Virus record (IMG/VR): IMGVR_UViG_3300042559_000515
Span: 19,631 to 83,630 of that record
Strand: one strand, 5' to 3'
DNA from: a virus
Length of the DNA: 64,000 bases
The notes beneath the pieces were generated by a model that saw only the letters and a list, made by a program, of their open reading frames with translations, made no database searches and was not told where the DNA came from. Made by a program: the position numbers and the translations under genes. This document shows, piece after piece, positions 48,743-64,000 of the stretch (position 1 is its first letter; each line of letters starts with the position of its first letter).

Positions 48743-49197
48743 GGGTTATACCGTGCATTCTTATACTCCTTTGGGGCAAGTCCAATACGGCGACTTAACT
48801 CTCGGCTAAGTACTTGGGCACCACGCTCACACCGTTGAAACACAGTCTCTGTCAACTTGCGGAAAGCACGGGACTCCAAGTACATGTCTTGTGCCTCTAA
48901 GACACTGATGTCAATGTCACGGCGAGCCTTGGCAAGAGTAACAGTGTCTCCCTTTACCTTCTCAACCGTCTGGTCAATGATTGCTTTAGCCTCAGTAACT
49001 TTAAGAAGGTGTGCCTTGCGGTCTTCGTCAATCTCTGACTTGACCAACTCTGCGTGTGTATATGACACCCATCCCATGAACTCTGCGTACAGGTTCATTA
49101 AAGCACTATCGGATAATTCGTCTAGGCTCTCTGGAAGACTCGGAATCTGGTCCGTTGGTTGTTCGGGTAGGTGAAACTTGCTCAGAAACTTGTTCAT
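48739..49197 (-). CDS. Hypothetical helical protein, 152 aa
   Basis: Long helices (AELVKSEIDEDRKAHLLKVTEAKAIIDQTVEKVKG, FRKLTETVFQRCERGAQVLS), with a disordered start (NKFLSKFHLPEQPTDQIPSLPESLDEL). ATG 49197 follows AAGAGGGG; the frame is open to 49353 inside the Cas4-like gene, so the true start may be further up (49269). Resembles phage proteins found next to RecA-type recombination genes. Confidence 0.7.
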   Translation of the reverse strand: MNKFLSKFHLPEQPTDQIPSLPESLDELSDSALMNLYAEFMGWVSYTHAELVKSEIDEDRKAHLLKVTEAKAIIDQTVEKVKGDTVTLAKARRDIDISVLEAQDMYLESRAFRKLTETVFQRCERGAQVLSRELSRRIGLAPKEYKNARYNP

Positions 49198-50038: not shown

Positions 50039-50358
50039 TCTGCACCTGTCATTTCAATAAAGTCATCTTCGGCAAGAACAACATATCTGCGACCTGCAAG
50101 GTCAAACTGAAGTACTGGCATTCGGTCTTCTACGATTGCTCGTTCAACCAACTCACGAAGGTCAACCTCTTTTAAGGTGATGGACTTCTTGTTAGTAGTG
50201 AACTTATTTTCAAATAAAAACTCTGCCGAACGCACATCGTTCTTGCGTAGCCAGAAAGACCCTGAGCCAGCATTACGACTTCCCTTGTAAGTATCAGCAG
50301 TGCGCTTTTCCTGCTTACGAGAAGTCTTCATAATTTGACGCTTCTCTTCAAGGTTCAC
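50035..50358 (-). CDS. Small PD-(D/E)XK resolvase-like nuclease, 107 aa
   Basis: KQEKRTADTYKGSRNAGSGSFWLRKNDVRSAEFLFENKFT: Glu17, Asp41 and ExK at 50-52 match the Holliday-junction-resolvase-type endonucleases of phages. Its start overlaps the recA stop by 4 nt. Confidence 0.8.
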   Translation of the reverse strand: MNLEEKRQIMKTSRKQEKRTADTYKGSRNAGSGSFWLRKNDVRSAEFLFENKFTTNKKSITLKEVDLRELVERAIVEDRMPVLQFDLAGRRYVVLAEDDFIEMTGAE

Positions 50359-51374
50359 AGTTCAATACCGTGCTTCTCAAAGACATCCTTACGAAGGCTT
50401 GCTTGCATGTCAAGGTCTTCACGGACACCAGCAAGTGCCTTGTCCTTACCCTGCCAACGCTCTCCACCGTATGAGTAGAACGCACCTGCACGCTCAATGA
50501 TGTTGGATGCAATGCCGATGTTCACCATGTCCTTGATGACATCAAAGTCGCCAAACTCAAAATTAGTTGCGTCTGCAAAGTAGAAGTCAACAATGGCTGA
50601 CTGCTGTGGTCGGTGTGTCTTGTTCTTAATAGTACGACCCTTGATGGACTGACCAACGGTCTCGTCTTTCTCCTTGAGCCACTCATCACGCTTGACTTCA
50701 ACACGACAGAAGTAGTGGAAGTTCTTTGCCTTACCACCTGGGGTAGTGCGGTTGTCTCCCCACATGACACCAATCTTCTCACGCCACTGGTTAATGATGA
50801 GACCAGTACAACCACGGTCTTCTTCAATCAATGAACGCTTCTGTGACTTAGAAGACTTGCGGAAGAATTTGCCAGTAAGACGGGCACCGAGACCAACGGT
50901 GAACTCTTCCATCATCTTCTCTGCTTCTGCGTCTGGAACGAGCGCAGGCAAAGAGTCAATAACAATCATGTCAACTGCACGGTTGTCCAACGCACGGATA
51001 GCGAGGTCATACACCTGCTCCATGATGTTGTTCTCCACAATCCAGAGACGGTCAAGGTCTACACCGATTGCCTTTGCATACTCAGGAACGAAGTCCTCAG
51101 CCGCAATCCACATGGCGCAAAACTCTGGGTCAAGTGCTTGGTTAGCCGCAATGGTCTTGAATGCCATAGCAGTCTTACCTGATGACTCTTCACCAATGAT
51201 TTCACTCCACTGGTTAACAGGCCAACCTCCACCAAGCATCAGGTCGTAGGACAAGACACCAGTGGTGATGCGTGGAATCATCTCACGAACATCAGAGCCT
51301 CGGACGATGCTTCCATCACCGTACTTCTTTTTGACTGATGCGATGATGGATTGAAGTGATTCGTATTCTGACAT
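50355..51374 (-). CDS. recA: RecA-like recombinase
   Basis: ATP-dependent strand-exchange protein. Walker A GEESSGKT (61-68), catalytic Glu93 (AAEDF), Walker B VDMIVIDSLPAL (Asp140), the L1/L2 region (GLIINQWREKIGVMWGDNRTTPGGKA) and an N-terminal KKKYGDGSIVRGSD as in bacterial RecA. At 339 aa it is close to host RecA length but diverged. It lies between a nuclease and polymerase genes, in a replication-recombination unit. GAGGT ribosome site. Confidence 0.95.
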   Translation of the reverse strand: MSEYESLQSIIASVKKKYGDGSIVRGSDVREMIPRITTGVLSYDLMLGGGWPVNQWSEIIGEESSGKTAMAFKTIAANQALDPEFCAMWIAAEDFVPEYAKAIGVDLDRLWIVENNIMEQVYDLAIRALDNRAVDMIVIDSLPALVPDAEAEKMMEEFTVGLGARLTGKFFRKSSKSQKRSLIEEDRGCTGLIINQWREKIGVMWGDNRTTPGGKAKNFHYFCRVEVKRDEWLKEKDETVGQSIKGRTIKNKTHRPQQSAIVDFYFADATNFEFGDFDVIKDMVNIGIASNIIERAGAFYSYGGERWQGKDKALAGVREDLDMQASLRKDVFEKHGIEL

Positions 51375-51377
51375 TTG

Positions 51378-51782
51378 TTACCTCGGTAGTGCTTGGTCGT
51401 ACATGCCGTTCCAACCACACTCGTAACAGCGTGGTGCTGGGCTTGCACCGTTAATCATGGTGTTATGACCACGCCCTGTCCTGCTGAAAACATAAATGCT
51501 TCCGCAATCTGGGCAGGTCATGTTACCTTCTTTGCGTGTGGCTTCACCACCTTGCCACAAACGAATTGCAGTACTCATGTCAATCTGTTCGTTGGCACCA
51601 CGACTTGGGTCAAGCAACTCCTGTCGTCCACCTTGTTGCACAACATTATGTTGTTGCTGTTGTGGAGACTGCATGGGAGTTTGCATAGGCATATTCAACG
51701 GAGGAGTTGTGGGGGGAGTTGTGTAAGTGCGTTGCGGTGTAGGTGTCTCACCAGCAAGTTTTTTTGACCACCAATCAGTCAT
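51378..51782 (-). CDS. Pro/Gln-rich protein with zinc ribbon, 134 aa
   Basis: ATG 51782 overlaps the upstream TGA. N-terminal half is Pro/Thr/Gln-rich and disordered, C-terminal half has TCPDCGSIYVF...PRCYECGWNGMY, a CxxC-x23-CxxC zinc ribbon. Position just upstream of recA suggests an accessory role. Confidence 0.75.
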   Translation of the reverse strand: MTDWWSKKLAGETPTPQRTYTTPPTTPPLNMPMQTPMQSPQQQQHNVVQQGGRQELLDPSRGANEQIDMSTAIRLWQGGEATRKEGNMTCPDCGSIYVFSRTGRGHNTMINGASPAPRCYECGWNGMYDQALPR

Positions 51783-52131
51783 CTTCGTATTCCTCCAATG
51801 AATCCTGTTCAACCATAAGAATTACTTTTTCTGAGTCTAATAGTTTATTGATTAATGCGACACCGTGTGACACGAGTGTTCTATGAAACTCATCCTTGAT
51901 GTCCTCTGATAAGTCGTGGATGCTCTTTAATTCACAAAACCAATCAGAGCATTGCAATACTTCTTCTAATAACCCCGTGGTTGTCAGAAGTGCCCAGCGA
52001 GCGATGACATCATAAGTTTCAATCTCTTGAACTTCTTCGGAAGGCATAGAGAACCCTGCCTCATGGGCAAAGTCTTGTCCCAAAGAGGGTGACAGCATAA
52101 GGTAATACATTCTTTTGTCCACTGCACTCAT
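51775..52131 (-). CDS. Hypothetical helical protein, 118 aa
   Basis: All-helical, acidic end (VEQDSLEEYEDD). Contains YDVIARWALLTTTGLLEEVLQCSDWFCEL. Overlaps the polymerase gene by 4 nt and precedes the zinc-ribbon gene. No family recognised. Confidence 0.7.
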   Translation of the reverse strand: MSAVDKRMYYLMLSPSLGQDFAHEAGFSMPSEEVQEIETYDVIARWALLTTTGLLEEVLQCSDWFCELKSIHDLSEDIKDEFHRTLVSHGVALINKLLDSEKVILMVEQDSLEEYEDD

Positions 52132-54176
52132 CCTTTTGCCTCAGCCCAACTGTAGGCAGAGTCGCATGAAACAACTAAGGGTACTGCATCTATGACCCGA
52201 CCATGTCCCATAGTCTCTATGAACTTAGGGGTCAATTCATCAATGATGTCTTCATTTACTGACACCACCAATTCGTCATGCACCTGCACCAGCAACTGGG
52301 CGTCAAAGCCCTCCAGAAGCCCTGAGATGCCCACCATAGCCTCTTTACATAGGTCAGCCGCAGAACCCTGCACCACGGCGTTCACAGCCTGTCTCTCGGC
52401 ACGAGAGCGCACATACTCGTCTTGGGAGTTGAGGTCTGAAAGGCGCCTACGGCGACCATACAAGGTAGATACATACCCCTTCTTTCTACCAGACTCAATG
52501 ACCTGTCGTTTCCACTCGGTAAGACCAGCGAACTGCTTGTAGTACTGGTCAATCATGTGGCGAGCCTCTTCAATAGAAATGCCTGTGGTGTTTGCCAACT
52601 TGTGTGGTCCTCCACCGTATGCGGTAAGAAAGTTAACGCCCTTACCAATCTGTCGCTCTTCGCTGGTCACCTCTTCAAGTGGCTTCTTAAGGAGCAAAGC
52701 GGCGGCTCCTGCGTGAATGTCCTCTTCGTTTTTAAAGATTCTAATTAGTTGTTTATCCTGAGAAAACATTGCCATGACCCGCAATTCAATTTGGTCATAG
52801 TCAGCCACCAGCAACTTGTAACCCTCTGGCGCCACGAACAGGCTTCGTACTGAAGACGAGCGTGGGATGTTCTGAAGGTTTGGGTTACTGGAAGATAAAC
52901 GACCTGTGGCTGTGCGGTGCAAATGAAATGAAGGATGCAACTTACTGTTGTTCAACTTAGGAATCAGACCATCAACATATGTTGATTTAAGTTTCTGCAT
53001 TTCTGAATACTCCAGAAGGAGTGGCACTACTGGGTGTTCGTGCTTTAACTTCTGTAGTGATTCTTCATCAACAGATGGCGCACCCTTGGCTGTCTTCTTC
53101 ACGGGCTTTAACGCCAGACCACCTTCACGCTTCTTGTTGAACAAGAGAGCCTGCTTATGTGGGTTGGAGTCAGGGTTGAACCCAACAAAGGAATGTTCAC
53201 TAATGGCAAGAATGATGTCACGAAGTTTTCCATCTAATTCTTTACCTAATGTTTTTAACGCACGAGAATCAACGAGGATTCCATTGTTCTCCATCTCCAT
53301 CAATACACGGAGGACTTTAACATCAAGTTTGAATGCGTTCTCTAGTTCTTCGTTAGAACTAATGATTCTCCACATGCGTGTGTAGAGCGACCATGTCCAG
53401 CGAGCGTCAAGGTGCACATACCGTGCCGCTTTATCAAACGGAACGGTGTCAATGATTGCGCCCAACTTTCCTTCACGACCATGTGAGTGTGTGCGAAAGT
53501 TATTGAGTACTACCTGCTCCATGGAGTAACTCATAAGGTTCTCATCAAGAATGTGTTGCATCAAGATGGTGTCAAAGAAAGGACCCGATGGGATTTCTCC
53601 GTAGTACTTGCCGATAGAGCGAGCGTCAAACTTGACATTGTGACCAATCTTGACAGCGTTACTAAAGAACAGTGGCTTGAGTATCTCAAGTACTGCTGAA
53701 CGGTCTAATTGTTCTGGCACTTCATCGTGTGTTGCTGGGATGTGGTAACGAGCCTTTGCTGATGACTCTTGACCATTCTTAAGCAACTTTCGGTAACCCT
53801 CTGGTGGAACAGTGGAGCCATCACCAATTTCTTCTGGTATCAAAACGACACCAACACGGTGACCCATGGGAATAGCCCAAGAGTGACCGTGTGTGGCTAA
53901 GGCAATCCAAAACACCTCATTACGCAATGGGTCAAGTGCTAACTCACCACGATATTTGTTCTCAAGGTTTTCACGAGCCTTCCGAGCAATCTCAGGTGTA
54001 GGACTCTTCAACTTAGAGAGATGTGTTTTCCATTCCTGTTCAACAATCTCAATAAGGTTGGGATGCCGTTCCAAATTCCCACGGGTCTCCACATCAAATG
54101 CGAAGGCTCCGTGTTGCTGAATAATGGAAACGGCTTCCCTTACCTCATCAAGCGTTGTTACAACGCCGTAAGACAT
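52128..54176 (-). CDS. polA: Family A DNA polymerase with 3'-5' exonuclease
   Basis: DnaQ-like exonuclease: DVET (28-31), HNVKFDARSIG (Asp184) and YVHLDA (Asp257). Polymerase: RTATGRLSSSNPNLQNIP (421-438), motif A ADYDQIELRVMA (Asp459/Asp461), motif B RQIGKGVNFLTAYGG (Arg508, Lys512, Phe516, Tyr520) and motif C QVHDELVV (His633, Asp634). No 5'-3' exonuclease domain; at 682 aa it is a Klenow-like replicative phage polymerase. Phe516 at the position of Taq Phe667 predicts discrimination against dideoxynucleotides. Confidence 0.97.
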   Translation of the reverse strand: MSYGVVTTLDEVREAVSIIQQHGAFAFDVETRGNLERHPNLIEIVEQEWKTHLSKLKSPTPEIARKARENLENKYRGELALDPLRNEVFWIALATHGHSWAIPMGHRVGVVLIPEEIGDGSTVPPEGYRKLLKNGQESSAKARYHIPATHDEVPEQLDRSAVLEILKPLFFSNAVKIGHNVKFDARSIGKYYGEIPSGPFFDTILMQHILDENLMSYSMEQVVLNNFRTHSHGREGKLGAIIDTVPFDKAARYVHLDARWTWSLYTRMWRIISSNEELENAFKLDVKVLRVLMEMENNGILVDSRALKTLGKELDGKLRDIILAISEHSFVGFNPDSNPHKQALLFNKKREGGLALKPVKKTAKGAPSVDEESLQKLKHEHPVVPLLLEYSEMQKLKSTYVDGLIPKLNNSKLHPSFHLHRTATGRLSSSNPNLQNIPRSSSVRSLFVAPEGYKLLVADYDQIELRVMAMFSQDKQLIRIFKNEEDIHAGAAALLLKKPLEEVTSEERQIGKGVNFLTAYGGGPHKLANTTGISIEEARHMIDQYYKQFAGLTEWKRQVIESGRKKGYVSTLYGRRRRLSDLNSQDEYVRSRAERQAVNAVVQGSAADLCKEAMVGISGLLEGFDAQLLVQVHDELVVSVNEDIIDELTPKFIETMGHGRVIDAVPLVVSCDSAYSWAEAKG

Positions 54177-54886
54177 TAGTCGTCTGTCTGAATCTCAAGT
54201 GCAACTTCAGCGAGTGTCTTACGAGACGGTGTGCGAATGATTTCGTCCGTGTATGCGTTGCCACTGAAATGGTTGAGGTCCTCTTTGGACAAAGCCTCAA
54301 GGCTCCATTCCTCAAGGTCGCCTTCACGAACCATCTGATGGTTGGTAGAGGTTGTAGCACCCTTACCTGAGCGTGACACAGTCCAATAGTGCTTAGACAG
54401 TGGTCCCATTGCTGGGTGGTCATTGAAGTTCTTAAGTGAGTCAATAACTCGTGCGCCAACTTCGTATGAACGAAGCACTGGCTCTTCCCCTGGTGTCAAG
54501 AGGACAACATTAAAGTTAAAGCGCCATGACGGACGGTTACCTGCTTCACAGAGTGGGCAAGAGGTACCTGAATCCATGTCAGCAATACATGTGAATGACA
54601 TCTGACCTTTGCGCTCTACCCAGTGCTGGCGGTAGCGAGCGTATGGTGCGTCCTCAATGAACTTGATGATTTGGATTGACTCAGTCACCTTGAGGCGCTT
54701 TGCGTAATCACCATCGCTGTTAGTGGAGGTGCGCTCGGTGCTACCCCAACCACTGCGCACTACTTTGCGTACTGGTTCACTTGTTTCTGCTTGTGGCTTA
54801 CGAATAAGCCCTGAATCATTGGATGCTTTGGAAGGTTCCGTGAACTCTTGTTCATCGTCTTCAAAGTCGTTGTCCCATCTACCCAT
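54176..54886 (-). CDS. Single-stranded-DNA-binding-like protein, 236 aa
   Basis: Matches the plan of actinophage SSB-like proteins: IQIIKFIEDAPYARYRQHWVE, GQMSFTCIADMDSGTSCPLCEAGNRPSWRFNFNVVLL with a Cys pair (zinc, as in T4 gp32), and an acidic C-terminus EIQTDD. Preceding acidic N-terminus. Its position immediately upstream of polA supports a replication role. AAGGAGCAAACAAC site. Confidence 0.8.
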   Translation of the reverse strand: MGRWDNDFEDDEQEFTEPSKASNDSGLIRKPQAETSEPVRKVVRSGWGSTERTSTNSDGDYAKRLKVTESIQIIKFIEDAPYARYRQHWVERKGQMSFTCIADMDSGTSCPLCEAGNRPSWRFNFNVVLLTPGEEPVLRSYEVGARVIDSLKNFNDHPAMGPLSKHYWTVSRSGKGATTSTNHQMVREGDLEEWSLEALSKEDLNHFSGNAYTDEIIRTPSRKTLAEVALEIQTDD

Positions 54887-54898
54887 GTTGTTTGCTCC

Positions 54899-55351
54899 TT
54901 ACTTGGGCCAATTGGCTTGTATGTAGTGAATGAAAGATACCCAATTGTTGGCGTCTTGCCAACTAGGATTTCTATCTCCCATAAGATTATTTTGGTCAAG
55001 TGCTGTTAGTAACACTTCAACCTGCTCACGGGAATAGAGACGATACCCCTTGCGGTCGGCGTTTAACAACTCCGCACCGCTTGCTTTTGAGGTTCGGTAT
55101 GTGGGGGCAGGAATCCACCCCTTGCGCTCCCATTTGCGAAGGGTAACCGCAGAACGACCAATTACTTTTGCTACTGAACCAACGGTGTACAACTCACGGT
55201 GAACACCACCAATCATTACAAGTTTCTTTGGCACCCCTCGGAACGGGTCATCAACTACTGACCCCTGCTCTGGTTTAAGAGGGCGATTCTTTGGCTTCTT
55301 TTTTCCTGGGTAATCAGGTAAGTCACCAAAAAGTTCAAGGACATCTCTCAT
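54899..55351 (-). CDS. MerR-like HTH protein, 150 aa
   Basis: LYTVGSVAKVIGRSAVTLRKWERKGWIPAPTYR...GYRLYSREQVEVLLTALDQ is a MerR-type winged HTH. A basic N-terminal extension (KKKPKNRPLKP) precedes it. Regulator of replication genes or a DNA-binding accessory factor. Confidence 0.88.
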   Translation of the reverse strand: MRDVLELFGDLPDYPGKKKPKNRPLKPEQGSVVDDPFRGVPKKLVMIGGVHRELYTVGSVAKVIGRSAVTLRKWERKGWIPAPTYRTSKASGAELLNADRKGYRLYSREQVEVLLTALDQNNLMGDRNPSWQDANNWVSFIHYIQANWPK

Positions 55352-55764
55352 GCCTTAAAAGCCCATGATTCTTTCTCTGTGTAAAACGACATGATGATGT
55401 CTTCCAGAGACTTGTCTGACCAAGCCAATCCTAAAATCTTGTCTTCGCTAAGTACTTCTATAACTTCTTTGACATCGTCCCAGAGGTTATTGTCTCGTGC
55501 CCACTGCTCAGCCGATGCAGTATCAAAAGAACGGGACACACGCTTTTCACGCTTAAGATTTAAATCACCGACAGTCAACCAGATGTGTCCCTTATCGTCA
55601 GGTGTACCGAAGTTTTCTACAGCAACAGACAGTTCTTTTTTCATGTCGTTGGTGCGTTTTTCAATAAGCGCAAGTGTGTCTTTTGACTTCTTGTACTCCT
55701 CAGCCAATCGCTCTAGGTAAGCAGTATCTGGCTGTGGTTGCTCTTCTCGTTTTACAACTCTCAC
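55348..55764 (-). CDS. Coiled-coil phage protein, 138 aa
   Basis: Coiled coil (YLERLAEEYKKSKDTLALIEKRTNDMKKELSVAVENFG), then a hairpin (KGHIWLTVGDLNLKREKRVSRSFD) and helices. Same layout as the 122 aa protein at 37148. Overlaps the HTH gene by 4 nt. Function unknown. Confidence 0.75.
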   Translation of the reverse strand: MRVVKREEQPQPDTAYLERLAEEYKKSKDTLALIEKRTNDMKKELSVAVENFGTPDDKGHIWLTVGDLNLKREKRVSRSFDTASAEQWARDNNLWDDVKEVIEVLSEDKILGLAWSDKSLEDIIMSFYTEKESWAFKA

Positions 55765-55949
55765 GAAACTACAAGACTGATGTCGGTGTCAAGAGAATGT
55801 ACAAGTTCAGAAATTAAGTGCTGTGCTTCTTCTGAAGTAAGCGGAGTTGCTGTTTCTGTGTCCAACATTTGGTCATCCATAAAGTCTGTCAAAAACTTGA
55901 CAAATTTTTCTGCAATTTCAATTGTTTCATAGTCATCGTATTTTTGCAT
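55761..55949 (-). CDS. Small acidic protein, 62 aa
   Basis: Acidic helical protein (YETIEIAEKFVKFLTDFMDDQML). Short spacing after the SNF2 gene. No family recognised. Confidence 0.65.
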   Translation of the reverse strand: MQKYDDYETIEIAEKFVKFLTDFMDDQMLDTETATPLTSEEAQHLISELVHSLDTDISLVVS

Positions 55950-55951
55950 TG

Positions 55952-57496
55952 TTATACCTCTGTATTTTTAAGGAAGTCGGAAAGTGTACCGAGATTTAGT
56001 TCAAATTTACCCTGTTGGTCGTACTGCTTGTCAAGGAACGCTGAATTAATACCACGCTTTTGCATGAGCATTTCGTACTGCCGTTCTTCAATAGACCCCT
56101 TCATTACGAACGAGGTAATTGTGACATGGGGGTGTGTTGAGGATAGTCGGATGATACGGGCGTCTCTTTGGTCCAGTTTTCCAGCCGACCAAGGGAGGTC
56201 GTAAGAGATGAGGTAATTGGCTTGTGGTAAGTCCACGCCATAGCCTCCCGCATCAGAGGATAAAAAGAGCCGAACATTACTGTCGGTTTGGAATTTGGTT
56301 TTAGCACGGTCTCGCTCATCTGCACCCATACCACCCATGAAGAGTACGCTCTCTGTAAGTCCTGTAGTTGCCTCTTGGATAAGCCGTAGGTTCTTCTTAA
56401 AGAACGAGAATAGAACCACTTTGTTATTTGGGTCTTCATTAAGTACATCCGTAATATAAGAAATAACGGCATCTAGTTTGGGTGTCTTAGCGCTCGTGGG
56501 GACCCAGTTGCTTTTGACGATTGCTGAAGCGTACTGACTGCCTTCTGTATTTTGTGTGGGGTCGTCAAACGCTTGTGCTGAGTCCAAAACCAACTGAGGG
56601 TTATCGCAGAGCATGCGGAGCACAGTAAGGCGAGCCATAATTTGACCTTGAGCGTCATTTCCATTTCCTCCGTTGTAGTGTGCCCACAAGTCAAATCCAC
56701 GACCAGTTGTTGTGATTGCTTTGCTGATTTCGTTTTGTAGGTCTTTGCTTATTTTCTCATACGCCGATGCACCTGCACTGTCAAACGGAACAGGAACGAC
56801 TTGTGTGATTACTTTGGGTAATTGGTCAGCAATGTCATCACGAGTTTTTCTAATCATGACTTCTGACAAAGATTCATTTAATGCTTGTAAGTTTCGGTAA
56901 CGCACTGGAGCGCCAAAGTGGTTACGCACAATGAAGGTGCGGTCAAAAATATCAAAGCGACCTAGCACTGATGGGTCAACAAACTCCATGATTGAAAACA
57001 ATTCTTCTGGTTTGTTCTCAATAGGTTGACCAGTGAGTGCAAAGCGATACTGGAATCGCTTACCTAACTTCTTTAACATCTTTGAACGCTTGGCACGGGG
57101 AGACTTGATGATGGTGGCTTCATCAATCACCATTGCATTAGCCCCAAGGTGCGTCAAGAATGTCTGGTCATTAAGAAGAACCTCTGGGTTGACAATGATG
57201 TAGCGACAGCGCAATGCGGTACGCCAAAGGACTTCCCGTTGCTTGGGTGTGCCATCAATAACGACCGCCGTGGAGTCGGTGAACTTCTTAATCTCACGAA
57301 GCCATTGGTATTTCAGCGAAGACGGAACAACAATAAGCACACGGTCTACTTCATTACTTTTGATTAGTTCTTCTATAGCCGAAAGAGTTGTAACTGTCTT
57401 ACCAGCACCCATGACCATGGCAAGAAGCATTTGACCTGTGTCAGCCATCTTCTGGCTTGCTTCTTCTTGGAATGGGTAGAGAGTTCCTTTAAACAT
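55952..57496 (-). CDS. SNF2-family DNA-dependent ATPase, 514 aa
   Basis: Helicase lobes with Walker A MVMGAGKT (27-34), IVVPSSL, DEAT at 125-128 as the variant Walker B, LTGQPIEN, and a second lobe with VLFSFFKKN, GGYGVDL and motif VI RDARIIRL. The DEAT box and MGAGKT loop separate it from the plus-strand SNF2 protein. ATG 57496 overlaps the primase stop (TAATG), deciding the start. Probably aids replication forks or rec repair. Confidence 0.92.
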   Translation of the reverse strand: MFKGTLYPFQEEASQKMADTGQMLLAMVMGAGKTVTTLSAIEELIKSNEVDRVLIVVPSSLKYQWLREIKKFTDSTAVVIDGTPKQREVLWRTALRCRYIIVNPEVLLNDQTFLTHLGANAMVIDEATIIKSPRAKRSKMLKKLGKRFQYRFALTGQPIENKPEELFSIMEFVDPSVLGRFDIFDRTFIVRNHFGAPVRYRNLQALNESLSEVMIRKTRDDIADQLPKVITQVVPVPFDSAGASAYEKISKDLQNEISKAITTTGRGFDLWAHYNGGNGNDAQGQIMARLTVLRMLCDNPQLVLDSAQAFDDPTQNTEGSQYASAIVKSNWVPTSAKTPKLDAVISYITDVLNEDPNNKVVLFSFFKKNLRLIQEATTGLTESVLFMGGMGADERDRAKTKFQTDSNVRLFLSSDAGGYGVDLPQANYLISYDLPWSAGKLDQRDARIIRLSSTHPHVTITSFVMKGSIEERQYEMLMQKRGINSAFLDKQYDQQGKFELNLGTLSDFLKNTEV

Positions 57497-58389
57497 TACA
57501 ACCACCAAGGAATAACTGAAGAGCCGACAATGGCTTCTTCTAACTCTGTATCTGTCATATCCCCAATGTCCTTTGCCTTCGTGTGGCTGTACTTCATCCA
57601 GTACACACCACCCTTTAGCAATGGCATGTCTTTAAAAATCTTTTTAGCACTAGCAATACCTGCTTCATCATTGTCCATTGCAATAATCAGTTTGTCTGCA
57701 ACTGAGTAGGTCAACTGCAACTGCTTCTTACTTACTTGAGCGCCGAATGTGGCAAGGCATTGCATCCCATCAAAGGATGAAGCAAAGCGAACAACATCTA
57801 AAGGTGACTCTACAAGAATAGCAGTGGACGATTTAAAGCGCTCAATACCAAACAGTGTTTCACTCTTCTTAACACCTGTTGGGTGGTTGTACACAAAACC
57901 ATTTCCCTTTTCCTGCCAACCAAGTAACTCACCTTCGGAAGAGACGATGGGAATAATCCATGCGTGCTTATCAGCGTTCCACCTGATGCCATGCTTGCGA
58001 GCAACATCTTCTGACAAGTTTCTGCTTGCAAGAATCTTTGCTGGAACTTCTTCGTAGTGGAGATACATCTGGTGGTCAACATTTGGACGCTTTTCCCACT
58101 TAGGCATCTGCAACCGTTCAACACTGTTGTTCATCAGCATTTGTGTAACAGAGAAATCGTCTTTACCTGTCAACTCCATGATGAGTTGTGGAAGTGTCCC
58201 ACGAGAACCACAGGAGTAACAAATCCAAAGACCTGAGTCGGCGTTCATAGACCATGAAGGAGAGTTATCGTCCTTACCTGTGCGTGCTAGGTGGACAGGG
58301 CATCGTGCAGATATTTCTTGTCCTGCTCTACGGACATCCACACCGATGGACATCAAGAAGTCTGCGAGGTCAGTAGTTCCAGCCATCAT
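57496..58389 (-). CDS. DnaG-type primase, 297 aa
   Basis: Zinc-binding N-terminus with Cys30, His33, Cys57, Cys60 (ARCPVH...ICYSCG), then a TOPRIM core: ILVESPLDVVRFA (Glu194) and IIAMDNDEAG (Asp239/Asp241). Short compared with full-length DnaG, lacking the C-terminal helicase-binding domain. It makes RNA primers; the helicase gene lies just upstream with a 20 nt overlap. Confidence 0.93.
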   Translation of the reverse strand: MMAGTTDLADFLMSIGVDVRRAGQEISARCPVHLARTGKDDNSPSWSMNADSGLWICYSCGSRGTLPQLIMELTGKDDFSVTQMLMNNSVERLQMPKWEKRPNVDHQMYLHYEEVPAKILASRNLSEDVARKHGIRWNADKHAWIIPIVSSEGELLGWQEKGNGFVYNHPTGVKKSETLFGIERFKSSTAILVESPLDVVRFASSFDGMQCLATFGAQVSKKQLQLTYSVADKLIIAMDNDEAGIASAKKIFKDMPLLKGGVYWMKYSHTKAKDIGDMTDTELEEAIVGSSVIPWWL

Positions 58390-59629
58390 TGTCCGCCTCC
58401 TCTCCGTCTTCTCCTACTTCGGTGAAGTTCATGTTTTCCCAGTCCCACTTAATACGCACTTCACCTTTTGGTGCAGTACGAGCAAGCACTACTCGGATGA
58501 TTGCTTGATTGTCAATGTCTGGGTCTGACTCCACACCAAGAATCAAATCGGAGTCTTGTGCAAACGATGAGGTGTAACCAATTGAGTCAGCAGAAATCTG
58601 CCGTGATTTCTTGTTACCAAGTTTCCATGAAAGAACCTGTGTCGTACCAATGAGTGGAACATCAAATCTCTGTGCAAGTCGCTTTAATGAACGGGTGATG
58701 TTTGTAAGCGCTTGTGGGCTTCCCTTAGGCTCACCATTCTCATCGTCCATCAAATACACACCGTCAACGATGACAAGACCTGGTCGGTACTGCTGAATCT
58801 TTCCTGCGATAGCGCTAACTGTTGTCAATGAAGACGCATCTTCAGTCATGATAAACGGATGCATGTTCTTGCGAATCTTGATGGACTTTTCAATCCTCTC
58901 TAGTTCTGCAATGTTTAAATCTCCACGCATGATTTTGTTGTGTGACACTCCTGCAACCAGTGCGTCATAGCGAGCCTCTTGTTCTTCAATACTCATTTCA
59001 AAAGAAACATACATTGGAGTAATACCATGAGCGTGAGCCGCTTGCGCCATGATGAGTGTCATCAGCGACTTACCCTTCTTTGCTTCACCCACAAATGTAA
59101 TCAACTGCTGGGGTCGGAATCCTGCGGTGATTTTGTCCAGCCCATTGAAACCTGTCGGAATGCCACGCAAGAAGTTTGGAGTATCACGCATTTCTCTGTA
59201 ACGCTCAATGCGTTGTTCCCAAGACTGGATGATGTCAACATCACGAAGATGTGCAACTTCAAGAGCCGCTTTCTGCAAACCCTCTGAAAGAATCTTTGCC
59301 GCTTCATCAGTGTCGTGTTCATTAAGGGATGGTGTAGCCGCAGTAACTGCAAGTACCAAGTGCTTGTGCTTGTACGCCATGTACAACTCATCAATGAGTC
59401 GTGGGAAAGGCTCTGCTTCTGCGTTAACAAGTTGTAGGTCTGCAAACTGTTGTTTAACTACTCGTGGTGTTGGAACGGCACTGTACTCACGCCAGTAACC
59501 AAGCAACCATAGGTAAACCGTGGACAACTCTGAGGTGAAGTGGTCGGGACGAACACCTGCATCAACTACTTCAGTAACACTCGCACTTTGGATAATTTTG
59601 CTGATTAGCAGATGTTCGCTACTAGCCAT
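58370..59629 (-). CDS. DnaB-type replicative helicase
   Basis: N-terminal helical domain (to about 150), then RecA-like motor: RGIPTGFNGLDKITAGFRPQQLITFVGEAKKGKSL with Walker A GEAKKGKS (181-188), the H1a motif SFEMS, and LVIVDGVYLMDD (Walker B). The start ATG 59629 lies in TAATG with the upstream stop. Length 419 aa fits DnaB-type phage helicases. A loader gene lies two genes upstream. Confidence 0.95.
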   Translation of the reverse strand: MASSEHLLISKIIQSASVTEVVDAGVRPDHFTSELSTVYLWLLGYWREYSAVPTPRVVKQQFADLQLVNAEAEPFPRLIDELYMAYKHKHLVLAVTAATPSLNEHDTDEAAKILSEGLQKAALEVAHLRDVDIIQSWEQRIERYREMRDTPNFLRGIPTGFNGLDKITAGFRPQQLITFVGEAKKGKSLMTLIMAQAAHAHGITPMYVSFEMSIEEQEARYDALVAGVSHNKIMRGDLNIAELERIEKSIKIRKNMHPFIMTEDASSLTTVSAIAGKIQQYRPGLVIVDGVYLMDDENGEPKGSPQALTNITRSLKRLAQRFDVPLIGTTQVLSWKLGNKKSRQISADSIGYTSSFAQDSDLILGVESDPDIDNQAIIRVVLARTAPKGEVRIKWDWENMNFTEVGEDGEEADNDGWNY

Positions 59630-60069
59630 TATGGTGCCCATGCCTTTTCTGTGCTCACAACCGTGGCTCGTGGGCCAATGATTTGAGCGACATCTTCGTT
59701 AGAGGTGTAGATGATACGCACGGCACGGCTGAATCGCAAGTCATATTCCAAAAGTTCTGGAGACTCGTAGTAGTACACAGGACAACTAATTCCTTTGCGC
59801 AACAACCACCTGTCAATTGCATCTACTGCATCTTCATGAATAAATGTATAAATGTCTGTACCAAGACCAAGTCGGTTAACACTGTCGGACAGTGCTTTGA
59901 TTGGAAGAGTGTTTGGTTCCCACAAACGAAGAACAGCGTCCCAGTTGTCACGCCTGCGTTGAATTGTTTCTAAAAATGACTTTGAGCCAGACGGAGGTGA
60001 TGCAAGAAGATTATCAAACACCACGCCTTGCGCTAATGGTGCGTAATCAATGATGTCATTGCCTTGCAT
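59629..60069 (-). CDS. Hypothetical protein, 146 aa, replication cluster
   Basis: GVVFDNLLASPPSGSKSFLE, then TLPIKALSDSVNRLGLGTDIYTFIHEDAVDAIDRWLLRKGISCPVYYYESPEL. A Rossmann-like or reduced HAD-like pattern with IIYTSNEDVAQIIGPRATVVST at the end. Start fixed by TAATG overlap with the loader gene. Role unknown. Confidence 0.7.
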   Translation of the reverse strand: MQGNDIIDYAPLAQGVVFDNLLASPPSGSKSFLETIQRRRDNWDAVLRLWEPNTLPIKALSDSVNRLGLGTDIYTFIHEDAVDAIDRWLLRKGISCPVYYYESPELLEYDLRFSRAVRIIYTSNEDVAQIIGPRATVVSTEKAWAP

Positions 60070-60725
60070 TATCTGACCGTGTTCTTCTCCAGCCAATCGC
60101 TCATTCGGTAATCGTCACTCTTAAGTGGCGCCATAAGACAACTGGACTTGATGATTGACTGCAAGTTTGCGCCGTAGATGTCGTTGAGTGTTGATGCCTT
60201 GTGGATGCTTGTAATAATCGTTGTCAATTGGTTGTGATAACGAGATTCAATCAACGATGAGATGGTCCTCTTAGTGAAGTCCGTTGGTCGTTCAGAGCCA
60301 AGGGCGTCAATCACAACAATGTCAAAAACCTCTTGCAGATACTTCATGGTGTTTGGGTCTTCGTAACCTTCTGGTAGGTCATCACCAAACTTGATTTCGT
60401 TGTAAGACATCTGAATGTACTTCTCAGCCGTAACAAACATCCCACAAATGTTGTTGGTGTAGACGACACGCTTCAGGATGGCTTGAGCAAGATGTGTCTT
60501 ACCTGAACCCGTACCACCGACTAAGTACAGCCCCTGACCGTTCTCAACCATCTCTGGTGCTTTGTCAATCCACTTGTTGATGAGTTCCAAGGACTCTTTG
60601 TCTTTGTCTGCTGTGTTGAATGTTTCTAAGTTTTGCGTGCGGAACCTTTTTGGGATTGCGGTGTTATGCACACGCTCTACAGGAGGTCTGTTGCGCCAGT
60701 ACTTTTGGCTACGAAGTTCACCCAT
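60069..60725 (-). CDS. DnaC/IstB-like AAA+ helicase loader
   Basis: Walker A GGTGSGKT (70-77), Walker B FDIVVIDALGSE (Asp140), sensor and box regions follow: KRTISSLIESRYHNQLTTIITSI. Size 218 aa matches DnaC-type loaders that place DnaB on DNA. Basic N-terminus (RSQKYWRNRPPVERVH) may contact the helicase. Lies just upstream of the helicase and primase genes. Confidence 0.93.
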   Translation of the reverse strand: MGELRSQKYWRNRPPVERVHNTAIPKRFRTQNLETFNTADKDKESLELINKWIDKAPEMVENGQGLYLVGGTGSGKTHLAQAILKRVVYTNNICGMFVTAEKYIQMSYNEIKFGDDLPEGYEDPNTMKYLQEVFDIVVIDALGSERPTDFTKRTISSLIESRYHNQLTTIITSIHKASTLNDIYGANLQSIIKSSCLMAPLKSDDYRMSDWLEKNTVR

Positions 60726-60727
60726 TG

Positions 60728-61117
60728 CTAAAGCCTTCTATCAGTTTCAACATCGTCATAACTATCTGGTTCCTTGTAGGTGGTCGCTTTCTTAGCGAGA
60801 GCGTCAAGATTAGCAAGGAAGGCACGCCATGGGGCAACGCCCTCCGTCAATGGTTTCTGTTTAATCTCTGTAATAAAAATATGCATCATGTCACGAATCT
60901 GTTTGGGGGTGTAGTTAGCCTCACGAAGTTTCTTTAATCCTTTTGACATCGCAGGAAAATTCACGGGGGAGTTCAACTTGCCCCAAGCGTCCTTTGGTAG
61001 GAGTTCCGAGAAGTAGGTCGTCAATCCAAATAGGGAATCTTGTCGGGGAGTCTTTTTTGGCGGAGCACTCTTAGGTTCGGCGTCTGCCCCAAATGCTGGA
61101 CCCCAGTCATCAGACAC
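60728..61117 (-). CDS. Hypothetical protein with QDSLF motif, 129 aa
   Basis: GTG at 61117 with GGAGG upstream and overlap with the previous TGA is preferred over ATG 61138. N-terminal TPRQDSLFGLTTYF contains QDSLF, close to the sliding-clamp-binding motif QL[SD]LF. The rest is helical (YTPKQIRDMMHIFITEI). Located between an initiator-like HTH and the loader, a replisome accessory role is plausible. Confidence 0.75.
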   Translation of the reverse strand: MSDDWGPAFGADAEPKSAPPKKTPRQDSLFGLTTYFSELLPKDAWGKLNSPVNFPAMSKGLKKLREANYTPKQIRDMMHIFITEIKQKPLTEGVAPWRAFLANLDALAKKATTYKEPDSYDDVETDRRL

Positions 61118-61586
61118 GACCAACCTCCACATCGTCATAGTCCGATTTCGGTCTCTTGTTATGGTTACTCTTATTACTCTTATTATTAACTCTTATTTGG
61201 GTGTCACTGGAGACACTAGGGGTAGTGTCAGGGGTGTCACCCCTAGTGGTGTCACTGGTGTCACTACCTAGTGTCACGGCTGACACTACCTCTGGGTTAT
61301 TAAAGTTGATGATAAATGCGTTGGAGAGGTTGTGTCCCTTGGTCCCACGGTGCTTGCGGATTAACACCCCAGCAGACTCAAGGCGCTTGACAGCACGGAT
61401 AACTGTTCGGCGGTCAACACCCACCTGCTCTGCGATGTATTTGTAGGAGGTCGTGGTGGTTTGGGTATCTGGCTTCATGTAAACCAGCAATTCCAGTAGG
61501 ACTGACTTGGCTACAGAGTCCCCATTGAGATACGGCAAAACCCAGCGTGGAAAGGCTAGGAAGGGTCCTCCAAATTTTGTACTCAT
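61110..61586 (-). CDS. Winged-helix replication-initiator-like protein, 158 aa
   Basis: wHTH: SYKYIAEQVGVDRRTVIRAVKRLESAGVLIRKHRG, like phage O/DnaD-type initiators. The C-terminal half is Thr/Ser/Asp-rich and disordered. ATG 61586 with CAAGGAGTACGAG was chosen over 61628. First gene of the leftward replication unit, divergent from the plus genes at 61734. Probably binds the origin or recruits the loader. Confidence 0.88.
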   Translation of the reverse strand: MSTKFGGPFLAFPRWVLPYLNGDSVAKSVLLELLVYMKPDTQTTTTSYKYIAEQVGVDRRTVIRAVKRLESAGVLIRKHRGTKGHNLSNAFIINFNNPEVVSAVTLGSDTSDTTRGDTPDTTPSVSSDTQIRVNNKSNKSNHNKRPKSDYDDVEVGRV

Positions 61587-61597
61587 CTCGTACTCCT

Positions 61598-61667
61598 TGT
61601 TGGTTGCTACGGGGTAGTGATGATACACTTTTTTTCCAACACTTGGACATACCCTGTGTTGGTTGCT
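61598..61667. repeat. Direct repeat TGTTGGTTGCT in divergent promoter region
   Basis: Perfect 11 bp direct repeats at 61598-61608 and 61657-61667 between the initiator-like gene and the plus genes. Could be operators controlling both directions. Confidence 0.45.
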
Positions 61668-61721
61668 CAGACGAAGGGCTGGGGCGCTTAACTGTGTCCC
61701 AGTCCTTAGTCGTTTATAGGG

Positions 61722-61727
61722 TAAAAT
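61722..61727 (+). promoter_or_regulatory. Candidate -10 element, leaderless start on plus strand
   Basis: TAAAAT, then GGTGCC, then ATG at 61734, with no ribosome site. Same layout as the minus-strand sites. Confidence 0.6.
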
Positions 61728-61733
61728 GGTGCC

Positions 61734-61901
61734 ATGGCTACAAAGAAAAAAGAAGTTTGGGACACCCCAGACCCTTCCAAAAAAGACAAGAAGTTGACTC
61801 CTGAACAGAAGTCAGAAGCAAAGGCTCGTGCTAAAAAAGCAGGACGCCCTTATCCAAATCTTGTGGACAACATGGCTGTGTCCAAAAAGGGTAAGAAGTA
61901 A
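61734..61901 (+). CDS. Small Lys-rich protein, 55 aa
   Basis: Basic and probably disordered (KKKEVWDTPDPSKKDKKLTPEQKSEAKARAKKAGRPYPNLVDNM). Short basic proteins of this kind occur in phage virions or bind DNA. Leaderless-type start. Its stop overlaps the next ATG (TAATG). Confidence 0.65.
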   Translation: MATKKKEVWDTPDPSKKDKKLTPEQKSEAKARAKKAGRPYPNLVDNMAVSKKGKK

Positions 61902-62164
61902 TGGCTCCATCCAAGTCAAGTGCACCTAAAAAGTCTGCTCAGTATTACAACGATAATCCTGAAGCAAAGGCTAAAAAGGGCGCTTACGATAAAGAGTTCA
62001 ACAAGAAACCAGAACAAAAAGAAAAGCGTTCTGAACTTGTTCAAGAACGCAGAGACCGTGGCGTCTATGGCAAGGGTGGCAAAGATATGTCCCACACCAA
62101 AGACGGTAAAATTGTTGCTGAATCCCCATCCACTAACCGTGGTCGTAACCGAGGAAAGAAATAA
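61901..62164 (+). CDS. Basic phage protein, 87 aa
   Basis: MAPSKSSAPKKSAQYYNDNPEAKAKKGAYDKEFNKKPEQ, ending GKIVAESPSTNRGRNRGKK; this matches a basic protein type found in cyanophage and other large phages (SAEYYRKN...AYDKKYN). Likely virion-associated or DNA-binding. Coupled on both sides by TAATG. Confidence 0.75.
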   Translation: MAPSKSSAPKKSAQYYNDNPEAKAKKGAYDKEFNKKPEQKEKRSELVQERRDRGVYGKGGKDMSHTKDGKIVAESPSTNRGRNRGKK

Positions 62165-62430
62165 TGGCTAGTAAGAAAGACCCCCGTTTAGAGCGTGCAG
62201 GTGTATCTGGTTTCAATAAGCCCAAGGCAACTCCAGACCATCCAACAAAGTCTCATATTGTTGTTGCCAAAGAAGGTGACCAGATTAAGACTATTCGTTT
62301 TGGTCAACAGGGTGTAGAAGGTTCACCTGATGGTTCTGCTCGTAATAAAGCATTCAAAGACCGTCATGCAAAGAATATTAAGAAGGGCAAGATGAGTGCC
62401 GCTTATTGGGCAGACAAGGTAAAGTGGTGA
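62164..62430 (+). CDS. DUF6321-like protein, 88 aa
   Basis: DPRLERAGVSGFNKPKATPDHPTKSHIVVAKEGDQIKTIRFGQQGVEG and a C-terminal FKDRHAKNIKKGKMSAAYWADKVKW match the DUF6321 family, small proteins of phage and mobile elements with a conserved HAKNI-x-KG-x2-S-AAYWA-x-KVKW end. Function unknown. It overlaps the Dps gene by 4 nt. Confidence 0.88.
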   Translation: MASKKDPRLERAGVSGFNKPKATPDHPTKSHIVVAKEGDQIKTIRFGQQGVEGSPDGSARNKAFKDRHAKNIKKGKMSAAYWADKVKW

Positions 62431-62861
62431 GCGCATTAACTGATGACCTCAAGACATTGATGGCTGATGTTGTCACGATGTACTTCGTGGCACATGGTTA
62501 TCACTGGAATGTTGAAGGACAAGACTTCTCTCAGTACCATGACCTTTTTGCGGATATCTACGAAGATGTCTATAGCAGTATTGACCCTATTGCGGAAAAC
62601 CTTCGCAAGTTGGATGAGTATGCGCCATTTACTCTTAGTAAGTTTACTGACCTTCGTACCGTTGAGTCAGTAGAAGTTAAACCTGAGCCACAGGCAATGG
62701 CAAAAGCCTTGTTGAAAGTTAATGACGGTGTCATTGAAACAATCAACAAGGCTTTTAAGTCTGCTGAAAAAGCAGGCGAGCAGGGCATTATGGACTTCCT
62801 AGCAAGTCGTGACGACATGCATAAGAAGTGGCGCTGGCAACTTACCGCTTCTACTAAATAG
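62427..62861 (+). CDS. Dps-like ferritin with intact ferroxidase site, 144 aa
   Basis: Mini-ferritin fold: AHGYHWNVEGQDFSQYHDLFADIYEDVYSSIDPIAENLR. His26, His38, Asp53 and Glu57 reproduce the exact spacing (12, 15, 4) of the ferroxidase ligands of E. coli Dps (51, 63, 78, 82). The GTG at 62427 overlaps the upstream TGA; an ATG at 62406 would add seven residues. Dps protects DNA and stores iron; in a phage it could shield DNA during infection or scavenge iron. Tail-to-tail overlap of 8 nt with the next minus gene. Confidence 0.92.
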   Translation: MSALTDDLKTLMADVVTMYFVAHGYHWNVEGQDFSQYHDLFADIYEDVYSSIDPIAENLRKLDEYAPFTLSKFTDLRTVESVEVKPEPQAMAKALLKVNDGVIETINKAFKSAEKAGEQGIMDFLASRDDMHKKWRWQLTASTK

Positions 62862-63657
62862 GTTTGTAACGCAAGTCTGCAAGGAATCGCTTGGTAAAGT
62901 TTTCTCCAAGCATCACAGACTGTAATACACCATCTTCAATCCAAGTAAGTTGTCCTTGAGTGACATTGAGTGGCTCAACAATTTCTGTTGCCACAACATC
63001 CGCTGAGATGATTGATGCATCACCGTCTACTGGTTCATGGTAGAAGATTGCATCAACAATTTCTTGTTTGGTCTTTCCGACATTCTCAACACCCAATGCT
63101 TTAGCCTGACGGCGAAGAACACCAATGTTCATGTTCATTAACTCGTCACGAGTGAATGGTGTTCCCTCAGTGGTTTCATTAGGGTCATGGTCAACAGTCT
63201 TTTCATGGACAATCTCTGGCTCAATGACATCCATGGTTACAGGCTCTGAACCTTCAATAACAATAGGTGTTAATGCCATAGTCAAGTCCTTAATAGGCTT
63301 GCCAGCATCTGCGCTCATAATTGCCAACTTCTCTGAAGATTCTTCATTGGCTTCATCCCAAAGGAGTAAGACTTCATCACAGACATTGATGATGGTCTTT
63401 GCTGGGTCATCATTTGTGACTACCTCAAGGGCAAAGTTAAGTAGTCCCTGTGGTGCTTTATCATCAATGCGTGTTACTGCGTTAAAAGGAACTTTGTGGT
63501 CTACCAGAAAGTCATAGACATCACTGACGGCTCCCTGTGGTGCACGGCGTGCGTGAATGACAAAGACTGCACCTTCATCACTCTTCAAGATGTCAATGAG
63601 ACCTTCTTGTACAACCTTGGTATTGGCAGACCCGCTACCAATAATTCCATACTTCAT
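62854..63657 (-). CDS. Protein with Rho-N/SAP-like domain, 267 aa
   Basis: N-terminal Rossmann-like part (MKYGIIGSGSANTKVVQEGL, FVIHARRAPQGAVSDVYDFL, IINVCDEVLLLWDEA). About residues 168-206, FTRDELMNMNIGVLRRQAKALGVENVGKTKQEIVDAIF, form a Rho N-terminal or SAP-type nucleic-acid-binding motif. C-terminal part unassigned. GGAGCAACAC site. May be a DNA- or RNA-binding regulator. Confidence 0.75.
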   Translation of the reverse strand: MKYGIIGSGSANTKVVQEGLIDILKSDEGAVFVIHARRAPQGAVSDVYDFLVDHKVPFNAVTRIDDKAPQGLLNFALEVVTNDDPAKTIINVCDEVLLLWDEANEESSEKLAIMSADAGKPIKDLTMALTPIVIEGSEPVTMDVIEPEIVHEKTVDHDPNETTEGTPFTRDELMNMNIGVLRRQAKALGVENVGKTKQEIVDAIFYHEPVDGDASIISADVVATEIVEPLNVTQGQLTWIEDGVLQSVMLGENFTKRFLADLRYKPI

Positions 63658-63666
63658 GTGTTGCTC

Positions 63667-63921
63667 CTACTTGTAAGTTTTACGAGCCGCCAAGTCCCCA
63701 TGAAGTGTCAGTAGACGCAAGAGACCGTGGCAGGCAGAAGCGATTGTAGCGACTACCAACCCACTTGTCCACACATCTGGAAGATTTGTGACAAACGCCA
63801 CCCCATAACCAAGAACAACTCCAACTAATACCTTTACCCAAGGCATTGCTTCTTTAGGCGTCAGTGTGTTAAGAAACTGCATCAACTTGTAAACAGCGAG
63901 ACCTGCTAGTAAATAATTCAT
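63667..63921 (-). CDS. Membrane protein, 84 aa (DUF1360-like or holin-like)
   Basis: Three hydrophobic segments (about 3-16, 27-46, 50-66) and a charged end (HGDLAARKTYK). The pattern AVYKLMQFLNTLTP...GVVLGYGVAFV resembles small phage membrane proteins of the DUF1360 or holin type. ATG overlaps the stop of the partial gene on the right. Confidence 0.75.
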   Translation of the reverse strand: MNYLLAGLAVYKLMQFLNTLTPKEAMPWVKVLVGVVLGYGVAFVTNLPDVWTSGLVVATIASACHGLLRLLTLHGDLAARKTYK

Positions 63922-64000
63922 TCAAGTACATTCCAATTGATTACATAGTCCGTGCCCTTCACAATTGTGACGGGAACGATGTAGTTCTCAATGATGTTAT
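63918..64000 (-). CDS. Partial gene at right edge (C-terminus only)
   Basis: Only the last 26 residues are in the window (NIIENYIVPVTIVKGTDYVI..., ending VLE). Its stop overlaps the start of the membrane-protein gene (ATGA). Beta-rich end; no family can be named. Confidence 0.6.
   Translation of the reverse strand, partial: NIIENYIVPVTIVKGTDYVINWNVLE

Follow-up and report, generated by a model that had tools for sequence, protein, structure and literature searches.

A stand-alone Dps-type mini-ferritin in the replication region of a phage, with relatives placed among or fused to capsid genes

Dps proteins encoded by phages have hitherto been read as an aid to host metabolism. The passages on Dps in the papers on Lactobacillus phages (PMC6669764) and on gut phages (Benler et al. 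2021, PMC8008677) both interpret the protein as an aid against oxidative stress. For the E. coli phage SU10, the relevant part of the report (PMC4281155) describes Dps as the product of a middle gene, of which 6 peptides were detected by mass spectrometry in phage that had been precipitated with PEG and not purified in CsCl; the same preparation also held non-structural proteins, namely DNA polymerase and thioredoxin. These data show that the SU10 protein, a distant relative of the one described here, is expressed; its location in the virion is not thereby shown. A table in PMC9962691 has an entry for an engineered fusion of Dec with Dps that sits on the exterior of P22 particles. The P. aeruginosa Dps PA0962 has neither a C-terminal tail nor basic N-terminal residues and cleaves DNA in vitro, according to the sections of PMC10002758 that deal with these points.

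A literature search, with preprints and most subscription journals outside its scope, found no account of Dps or ferritin fused to head proteases or contained in procapsids. Three candidate reports turned out, in their relevant portions, to concern other matters: the Dps in the paper on phage YerA41 is that of the Yersinia host, the 'DPs' of PMC12796354 are capsid-bound 'DP' proteins and not Dps, and PMC11281485 concerns a bacterial regulon.

We analysed a stretch of 64,000 nucleotides (hereafter the window), bases 19631-83630 of an 83,630-base virus record, in which the preliminary description had placed a phage Dps at 62427-62861. The locus was compared with its close relatives in a set of 81 close loci, consisting of the window stretch (L001) and the best 80 of 164 confirmed IMG/VR loci; these stretches reach up to 8 kb on each side and are often shorter. 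The Dps gene and its surroundings are given below, with the number of the 81 loci in which each neighbour was found.

60069-60725, minus strand: DnaC-like helicase loader (phrog_50, 7e-30; 60 of 81 loci)
61110-61628, minus strand: replication initiation protein, divergent to the island (phrog_270, 3e-16; 67 of 81 Dps loci)
61722-61727, plus strand: TAAAAT, possible leaderless-type -10 element, 6 nt before the island's first ATG (61734)
61734-61901, plus strand: sp55, small basic protein of 55 aa, pI 10.1 (phrog_34011, 3e-23; 41 of 81 loci)
61901-62164, plus strand: sp87, small basic protein of 87 aa, pI 10.0 (phrog_6437, 3.5e-28; 9 of 81 loci)
62164-62430, plus strand: sp88, small basic protein of 88 aa, pI 10.2 (phrog_7595, 2e-35; 33 of 81 loci)
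62427-62861, plus strand: Dps-type mini-ferritin of 144 aa with a GTG start (Pfam, PHROG, PDB, AF2, VIA-align)
62854-63657, minus strand: convergent gene of 267 aa, function unassigned (weak Rho_N match; 64 of 81 loci)

The open reading frame is present where it had been placed, and it matches Pfam Ferritin, PHROG 3636 and Dps chains of the PDB. Its first 4 bases (GTGA) are also the last 4 of the gene before it, and its frame is closed 15 codons upstream of the start. A start codon stands at the same position in 69 of the 81 loci (ATG in 45 and GTG in 24, the window's own included), which supports the GTG start that the preliminary description had chosen. The protein matched the Pfam Ferritin family (PF00210) at 2.3e-17 and phrog_3636 at 7e-28; in the latter match residues 3-143 were aligned to positions 7-147 of the 149 in the profile, so the match runs across the whole profile and the protein belongs to PHROG 3636. 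The best PDB Dps chain by sequence was 8ff9, the P. aeruginosa Dps PA0962 (3e-21). The AF2 monomer model, calculated with 33 aligned sequences, had a mean pLDDT of 96.3 and predicted helices at residues 3-28, 34-49 and 52-61, 70-76, 88-115, and 119-142, which is the helix order of Dps, including the short BC helix, in a four-helix bundle. The top 50 PDB rows of a Foldseek search with this model were all Dps-family chains (under names that include Dps, NAP, MrgA, Dpr, Dlp, TpF1 and one 'putative bacterioferritin'), and the top 50 Dps chains in VIA-align had Z-scores of 20.4-22.1 over 141-144 residues. The pN/pS values against 13 chosen relatives were 0.05-0.26, with synonymous sites near saturation in most pairs, and they show strong purifying selection on the gene. 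The window gene is a new member of an already known kind, and what makes it stand out is its family context.

The preliminary description had also proposed a working ferritin-like protein with a complete ferroxidase centre, spaced exactly as in E. coli Dps. We followed the four ligands, and one further position, through the 59 distinct close Dps sequences drawn from the 81 loci. The further position corresponds to Asp67 of E. coli Dps, which we take to be, in numbering as in role, a fifth ligand; its counterpart in the window is Ala42.

62502-62504, plus strand: His26, ferroxidase ligand, invariant in 59 of 59 and aligned with PA0962 H37
62538-62540, plus strand: His38, ferroxidase ligand, invariant in 59 of 59 and aligned with PA0962 H49
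62550-62552, plus strand: Ala42, presumed counterpart of E. coli Asp67, variable (A 39, S 8, G 6, E 5, L 1; n=59)
62583-62585, plus strand: Asp53, ferroxidase ligand, invariant in 59 of 59 and aligned with PA0962 D64
62595-62597, plus strand: Glu57, ferroxidase ligand, invariant in 59 of 59 and aligned with PA0962 E68

The ligands H26, H38, D53 and E57 are thus spaced 12/15/4, and the pattern H-x11-H-x14-D-x3-E occurs only once in the six-frame translation of the window, at the Dps gene. All 212 distinct Dps domains that were aligned (59 close, 26 fused, 43 other viral, 77 cellular and 7 from isolate phages, with the fragments L248 and L160 left out) have the four ligands at the 12/15/4 spacing, the invariance of the histidines being partly built in since the relatives were found with peptide seeds that contain both of them. 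The spacing is therefore as had been described, but it is not special to E. coli Dps; to judge from the alignment, it is a mark of Dps generally. The alanine at position 42 means that the acidic residue presumed for E. coli is missing in the window Dps, and the position is variable among the 77 cellular relatives as well (E 32, M 45). The part of PMC10002758 on the iron site gives the ligands of PA0962 as H37, H49, D64 and E68, at the same spacing, with His49 and Glu68 as the only protein ligands of the second iron. Because the residue at position 42 varies across Dps and its counterpart is not named as a ligand of PA0962, we did not treat it as defining, and since the second iron of PA0962 is held by His49 and Glu68 only, Ala42 need not break the iron site. 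That the window encodes a working ferroxidase-type Dps is well supported by the predicted fold, the invariant ligands and the purifying selection, from which we infer its activity.

The window Dps is acidic, with a pI of 4.9 and a net charge of -8. It is also tailless, its first predicted helix beginning at residue 3 and its last reaching residue 142 of 144, and it has no basic N- or C-terminal tail of the kind found in E. coli-type DNA-binding Dps. Values of pI span 4.7-6.9 for the 59 close sequences, 4.5-7.1 for a further 43 viral Dps that stand alone, and 4.3-5.1 for the 26 fused Dps domains. Protection of DNA had been put forward as a role of the protein; with this charge and without a basic tail, protection by direct binding is unsupported. 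Because the protein is acidic and tailless, chemistry is to be preferred over coating, and protection through the removal of Fe2+ and H2O2 would be the likelier form.

The Dps gene is the last of four co-directional genes, with sp88 directly upstream of it. This island opposes a replication block that comprises the initiator, the DnaC-like loader, a DnaB-like helicase, a primase, a helicase, a DNA polymerase and a recombinase, and that also holds a weak SSB match. The match of the 267-aa gene on the other side to PF07498 (Rho_N), at 1.7e-4, was below the cut-off. The association of Dps with the three small basic proteins, to which the preliminary description had attached weight, proved weak: sp55, sp88 and sp87 occur in 41, 33 and 9 of the 81 loci, respectively, and across the loci small basic proteins stand on either side of Dps, sometimes downstream. 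sp88 matched 50 isolate phage records and was up to 86% identical in marine roseophages of ~40 kb, an identity that is high for otherwise different phages. In the Lentibacter phage ICBM2 the sp88 gene is on the same strand as, and after, the genes for an internal virion protein and an endolysin, and the C-terminal part of sp88 gave a weak match to phrog_220, minor head protein and DNA pilot (1.5e-5). A search for sp55 in isolate phages gave no match. A search for sp55, sp87 and sp88 within longer ORFs (>150 aa) at the viral loci turned up a single weak example, sp88 in L214 (33%), and a shared 'cargo' role of the three proteins was not borne out. A megablast of window positions 50000-64000 against isolate phages gave no match, so this region has no named close relative in the isolate collection.

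The TAAAAT ahead of the island looks like the promoter of a leaderless transcript: in 14 of 27 loci, that of the window among them, a TANNNT is found 4-8 nt ahead of the start, compared with 2.5% of the ATGs on the plus strand of the window. A promoter of the leaderless type would suit an actinobacterial host. A promoter scan of the island gave 1 sigma-70-like site where 2.2 were expected, and this one was on the other strand; terminator-like sites numbered 2, with 1.4 expected. Between the initiator gene and the island lies an inverted repeat (61674-61707) of 14 pairs, G-T allowed and 8 of them G-C, which is a candidate operator, terminator or origin element; such sites are here about as frequent as in shuffled sequences. 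Elsewhere, the minus strand of the window encodes a Cas4-domain-like exonuclease within the replication/recombination block (49106-50038; phrog_1706, phrog_1990), a 1115-aa tail fibre protein (7307-10654) for which tail fibre families and collagen-like minor tail families gave many matches, and a 478-aa protein (38230-39666) that matched phrog_887, queuine tRNA-ribosyltransferase, at 1.2e-35, gave no match in Pfam, and is perhaps a DNA-modifying transglycosylase.

Replication genes were present in the fetched stretch of 70 of the 81 loci. Dps stood in the head module in nine loci, and two (L005 and L031) were cut off upstream. The gene order in L035, L045, L046, L066, L075 and L080, as far as the stretches reach, is TerL, Dps, portal, scaffold and major head protein, and in L077, L079 and L081 Dps directly follows a different TerL. 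The nine head-module proteins are 65-73% identical to the window Dps, the stand-alone relatives between TerL and portal 66-73%. In L077, in which the Dps right after TerL is 66% identical to that of the window, the TerL, portal and major head protein are 74%, 73% and 68% identical to those of the window phage (metallophosphoesterase, 53%; scaffold, 41%), which means that Dps is found at either place in phages that share a head type. In the window phage itself the head genes occupy the left part of the record (L249); the whole record contains one Dps match only, at the window site, and the window Dps does not lie between terminase and portal. Outside the close set, Dps follows the major head protein gene in L082, a 7-kb contig from a gammaproteobacterial MAG bin, which is most likely a mis-binned phage contig.

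A fold search of viral protein models returned, among its top matches, proteins of uncultured phages that bear the name 'Prohead protease' or are long proteins named 'Dps'. Scanning again, now with the Dps of L082 as query, yielded 79 loci and, with L082 itself, a wider set of 80 loci. In 33 of these 80 the Dps domain lies inside an ORF >300 aa (L183-L239, e.g. L199:5395-7158), a share that is not a natural frequency, given a query taken from a head module and a scan that retains nothing but motif matches. The 33 fused loci hold 28 distinct proteins and 26 distinct Dps domains. Eight of the 28 proteins were scanned (L184 over the last 840 of its 1740 residues only), and all eight matched a head maturation protease PHROG, the weakest match being that of L199 (2e-5); five, L199 included, also matched Pfam Peptidase_S78 (PF04586) above the cut-off. 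Their architectures differ: protease, Dps and a long acidic tail in L199, L212, L239 and L190; Dps followed by protease in L216 and, by sequence, in L210; protease, DUF6321 (PF19846, 2.9e-29) and Dps in L185 (L185:4891-7098); and a protease of another type followed by Dps in L197. In the 1740-aa ORF of L184, Dps comes after profile matches to portal and to head maturation protease that overlap each other. By pattern, the S78-like His and Ser motifs are present in 27 of the 33 fused loci, the exceptions being L183-L186, L197 and the fragment L194. The ferroxidase ligands are intact in all 26 fused Dps domains, and in an alignment of 14 of the 28 fused proteins, all of the S78 type, His61 and Ser123 of the protease and H225, H237, D252 and E256 of Dps were invariant.

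The neighbours of the 26 distinct fused genes include a portal in 18 loci, a major head protein in 17 and a head-tail adaptor in 16, where the neighbour groups were named from one scanned representative each and the portal is on the other strand; beside the fused genes of L197, L185 and L216 lie portal or head protein genes of other kinds. The fused genes occupy the usual place of the head protease. Stand-alone Dps genes were also found near head genes in this second set, near the portal in L182 and L240 and after the major head protein in L170 and L171, and many others adjoin baseplate-like, cytidyltransferase-like or unassigned genes. The window Dps, with its ORF of 144 aa, is not fused to a protease. 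A genome-packing aid had been among the roles suggested for it; this idea gains indirect support from close relatives situated between terminase and portal and, further off, from those joined to head maturation proteases.

When the fused protein of L199 was queried against isolate phages, five records were found, each with one of the two domains and none with both. The Dps-protease fusion has so far been seen in uncultured phages only, and fused sequences are already in UniProt under automatic-looking names. The AF2 model of L199 (14 sequences) had an overall pLDDT of 56.6 and a pTM of 0.31, with pLDDT of ~58-89 in the Dps part and ~47-78 in the protease part, and it was mostly disordered after Dps apart from one long helix. 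The top 50 rows of a Foldseek search with this model were Dps-family chains only, so the protease part of L199 rests on sequence profiles.

To place the window Dps, a tree was built from 96 thinned rows (146 columns) by a quick method, with SH-aLRT support only and with a cellular sample limited to motif hits (80 kept of 118). The 63 viral-contig rows formed one set (SH-aLRT 95), and 26 cellular rows stood apart (88). The window Dps fell in a set of 17 rows that joins replication-side with head-module forms (SH-aLRT 96), which sits inside a 48-row set holding all 18 fused rows (SH-aLRT 99), and it is a member of a virus-only Dps clade that includes the fused forms. On this tree the fused label needs 2 changes, 1 of them forced, which is compatible with more than one number of independent fusions. 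The Dps of isolate phages were outside the viral clade, on long branches and with unsure placement. Apart from L082, the best cellular match had 38% identity to the query, and the plasmid match that ranked highest had 39%. Compared with cellular Dps, the viral set is marked by Asn99 (123 of 128 viral sequences) and Gly120 (128 of 128).

The explanation that we consider best, and probably correct, is that the window Dps protects phage DNA in the infected cell by iron chemistry and not by coating. Its subunits would assemble into a 12-mer cage, with ferroxidase sites between subunits that would be built of the observed His26 and His38 together with Asp53 and Glu57. At these sites Fe2+ would be oxidised, probably with H2O2 as in P. 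aeruginosa Dps, and with the Fe3+ stored in the cage, the Fenton reaction that would break phage DNA would be suppressed. The action would be chemical; the protein has no basic tail and presumably does not bind DNA. The Dps gene stands in a small island that faces the replication genes, so its product most likely acts inside the infected cell, during DNA copying and packaging, and for a stand-alone gene beside replication genes this is the safer reading, packaging into the particle being possible. Position alone says little, because small phage gene islands can hold functionally unrelated genes, and a purely protective role fits poorly with the cutting of DNA in vitro by PA0962, the closest solved relative. 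As a family, however placed (replication-side, terminase-portal or protease-fused), these Dps are tied to phage DNA and its container.

The same chemistry could serve elsewhere. Dps may enter the procapsid and stay in the particle, where it would guard the packed DNA against Fenton damage; the head maturation protease would be its carrier in the fused forms, and in the window phage the stand-alone protein would be recruited by some unspecified contact. The head maturation protease is a procapsid component in HK97-type heads, so the fusions make sense if Dps is wanted inside the procapsid. This reading draws on the 33 of 80 loci with Dps inside a long ORF, on the protease matches of all eight that were scanned, on the portal and major head protein genes beside most of the 26 distinct fused genes, and on the ligands kept in every fused domain; the stand-alone relatives between TerL and portal argue for it too, as does L077, with its Dps right after TerL and its head proteins 68-74% identical to those of the window phage. 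However, the window gene lacks the fusion and lies outside the head module, the isolate phages yielded no example of the fusion, and the SU10 preparation in which Dps was detected contained DNA polymerase and thioredoxin and had not been purified in CsCl, as stated in the relevant part of PMC4281155. We regard it as rather unlikely. Dps could also be an auxiliary metabolic gene that detoxifies peroxide and iron for host metabolism, with no tie to phage DNA. That is the printed reading in the passages on gut and Lactobacillus phages (PMC8008677, PMC6669764), whose Dps belong to the same protein family, but it leaves the head-protease fusions and the terminase-Dps-portal order unexplained; we hold it to be less likely than not. 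The probabilities that we assign add up to more than one, because these two alternatives differ from protection in the infected cell in place or beneficiary and not in chemistry.

Two further alternatives depart from that chemistry. Dps might bind and compact phage DNA like E. coli Dps and so aid its packing, in line with the PHROG label 'DNA binding protein' and with neighbours of pI 10 that could act as partners. The label, however, is an annotation and not a test, and a tailless protein of pI 4.9, with relatives that are acidic to neutral (pI 4.3-7.1), makes such coating very unlikely. The faintest chance is that Dps is a metal-dependent nuclease that nicks DNA, for example that of the host, like P. 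aeruginosa Dps. PA0962, at 30% identity, cleaves DNA in vitro, and endonuclease activity is reported for PA4880, another Dps-like protein; but the section of PMC10002758 on cleavage leaves the mechanism and the residues undefined for PA0962, and a nuclease that entered the capsid as part of the fused forms would put the phage's own genome at risk.

The Dps relatives that lie among capsid genes or are fused to proteases suggest that some phages build ferritin into their particles. Packaging of Dps in capsids is a serious hypothesis, and it is strongest for the fused forms. In its full form, to which we give slightly less than an even chance, a phage lineage builds a ferroxidase mini-ferritin into its procapsids, by fusion of Dps to the head maturation protease or to the protease plus a scaffold-like tail, or by a gene in the terminase-portal module, so that its virions carry an iron and peroxide scavenger; the window phage has the stand-alone form and may load it. 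Protease-fused Dps with intact iron-site residues points to a use other than aid to host metabolism, namely guarding the packed genome inside the particle. If this is true, a chemical defence is added to the known contents of capsids.

Among known Dps, PA0962 (8ff9) shares 30% identity with the window Dps and matches its fold over the whole length. The two are alike in their four ferroxidase ligands, in the spacing of these and in having no basic tails, whereas PA0962 is a cellular stress protein and has Glu at the position of Ala42. The Dps of seven annotated isolate phages (Streptomyces Bmoc and Tomas, Aeromonas 4_4572, Cronobacter GAP52, Salmonella 7-11, Proteus Privateer and Lactobacillus Lb338-1) also share the His, His, Asp and Glu ligands, and their genes adjoin replication or nucleotide genes; they differ in having only 22-38% identity to the window Dps, often over part of the length, and Asp at position 42 in 7 of 7. 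The Dps of Gratiaviridae and other gut phages, which we compared by description, have likewise been proposed to act against oxidative stress, and the passages on them in PMC8008677 give no link to head genes. Also related to the window Dps are four UniProt proteins of uncultured Caudovirales (A0A6J7XDU5, A0A6J7WPK9, A0A6J7WIS1 and A0A6J5RFH1), in which the Dps part is 44-48% identical and the fold-search TM-score to the window model is 0.87-0.96; these proteins are 333-763 aa long, whereas the window Dps stands alone. The HK97-type prohead serine protease (PF04586), the partner domain of many fused relatives, is absent from the window Dps. What is distinctive about the family is that a virus-only Dps clade recurs within the machinery of capsid assembly, by gene position or by fusion, and keeps its iron-site residues intact.
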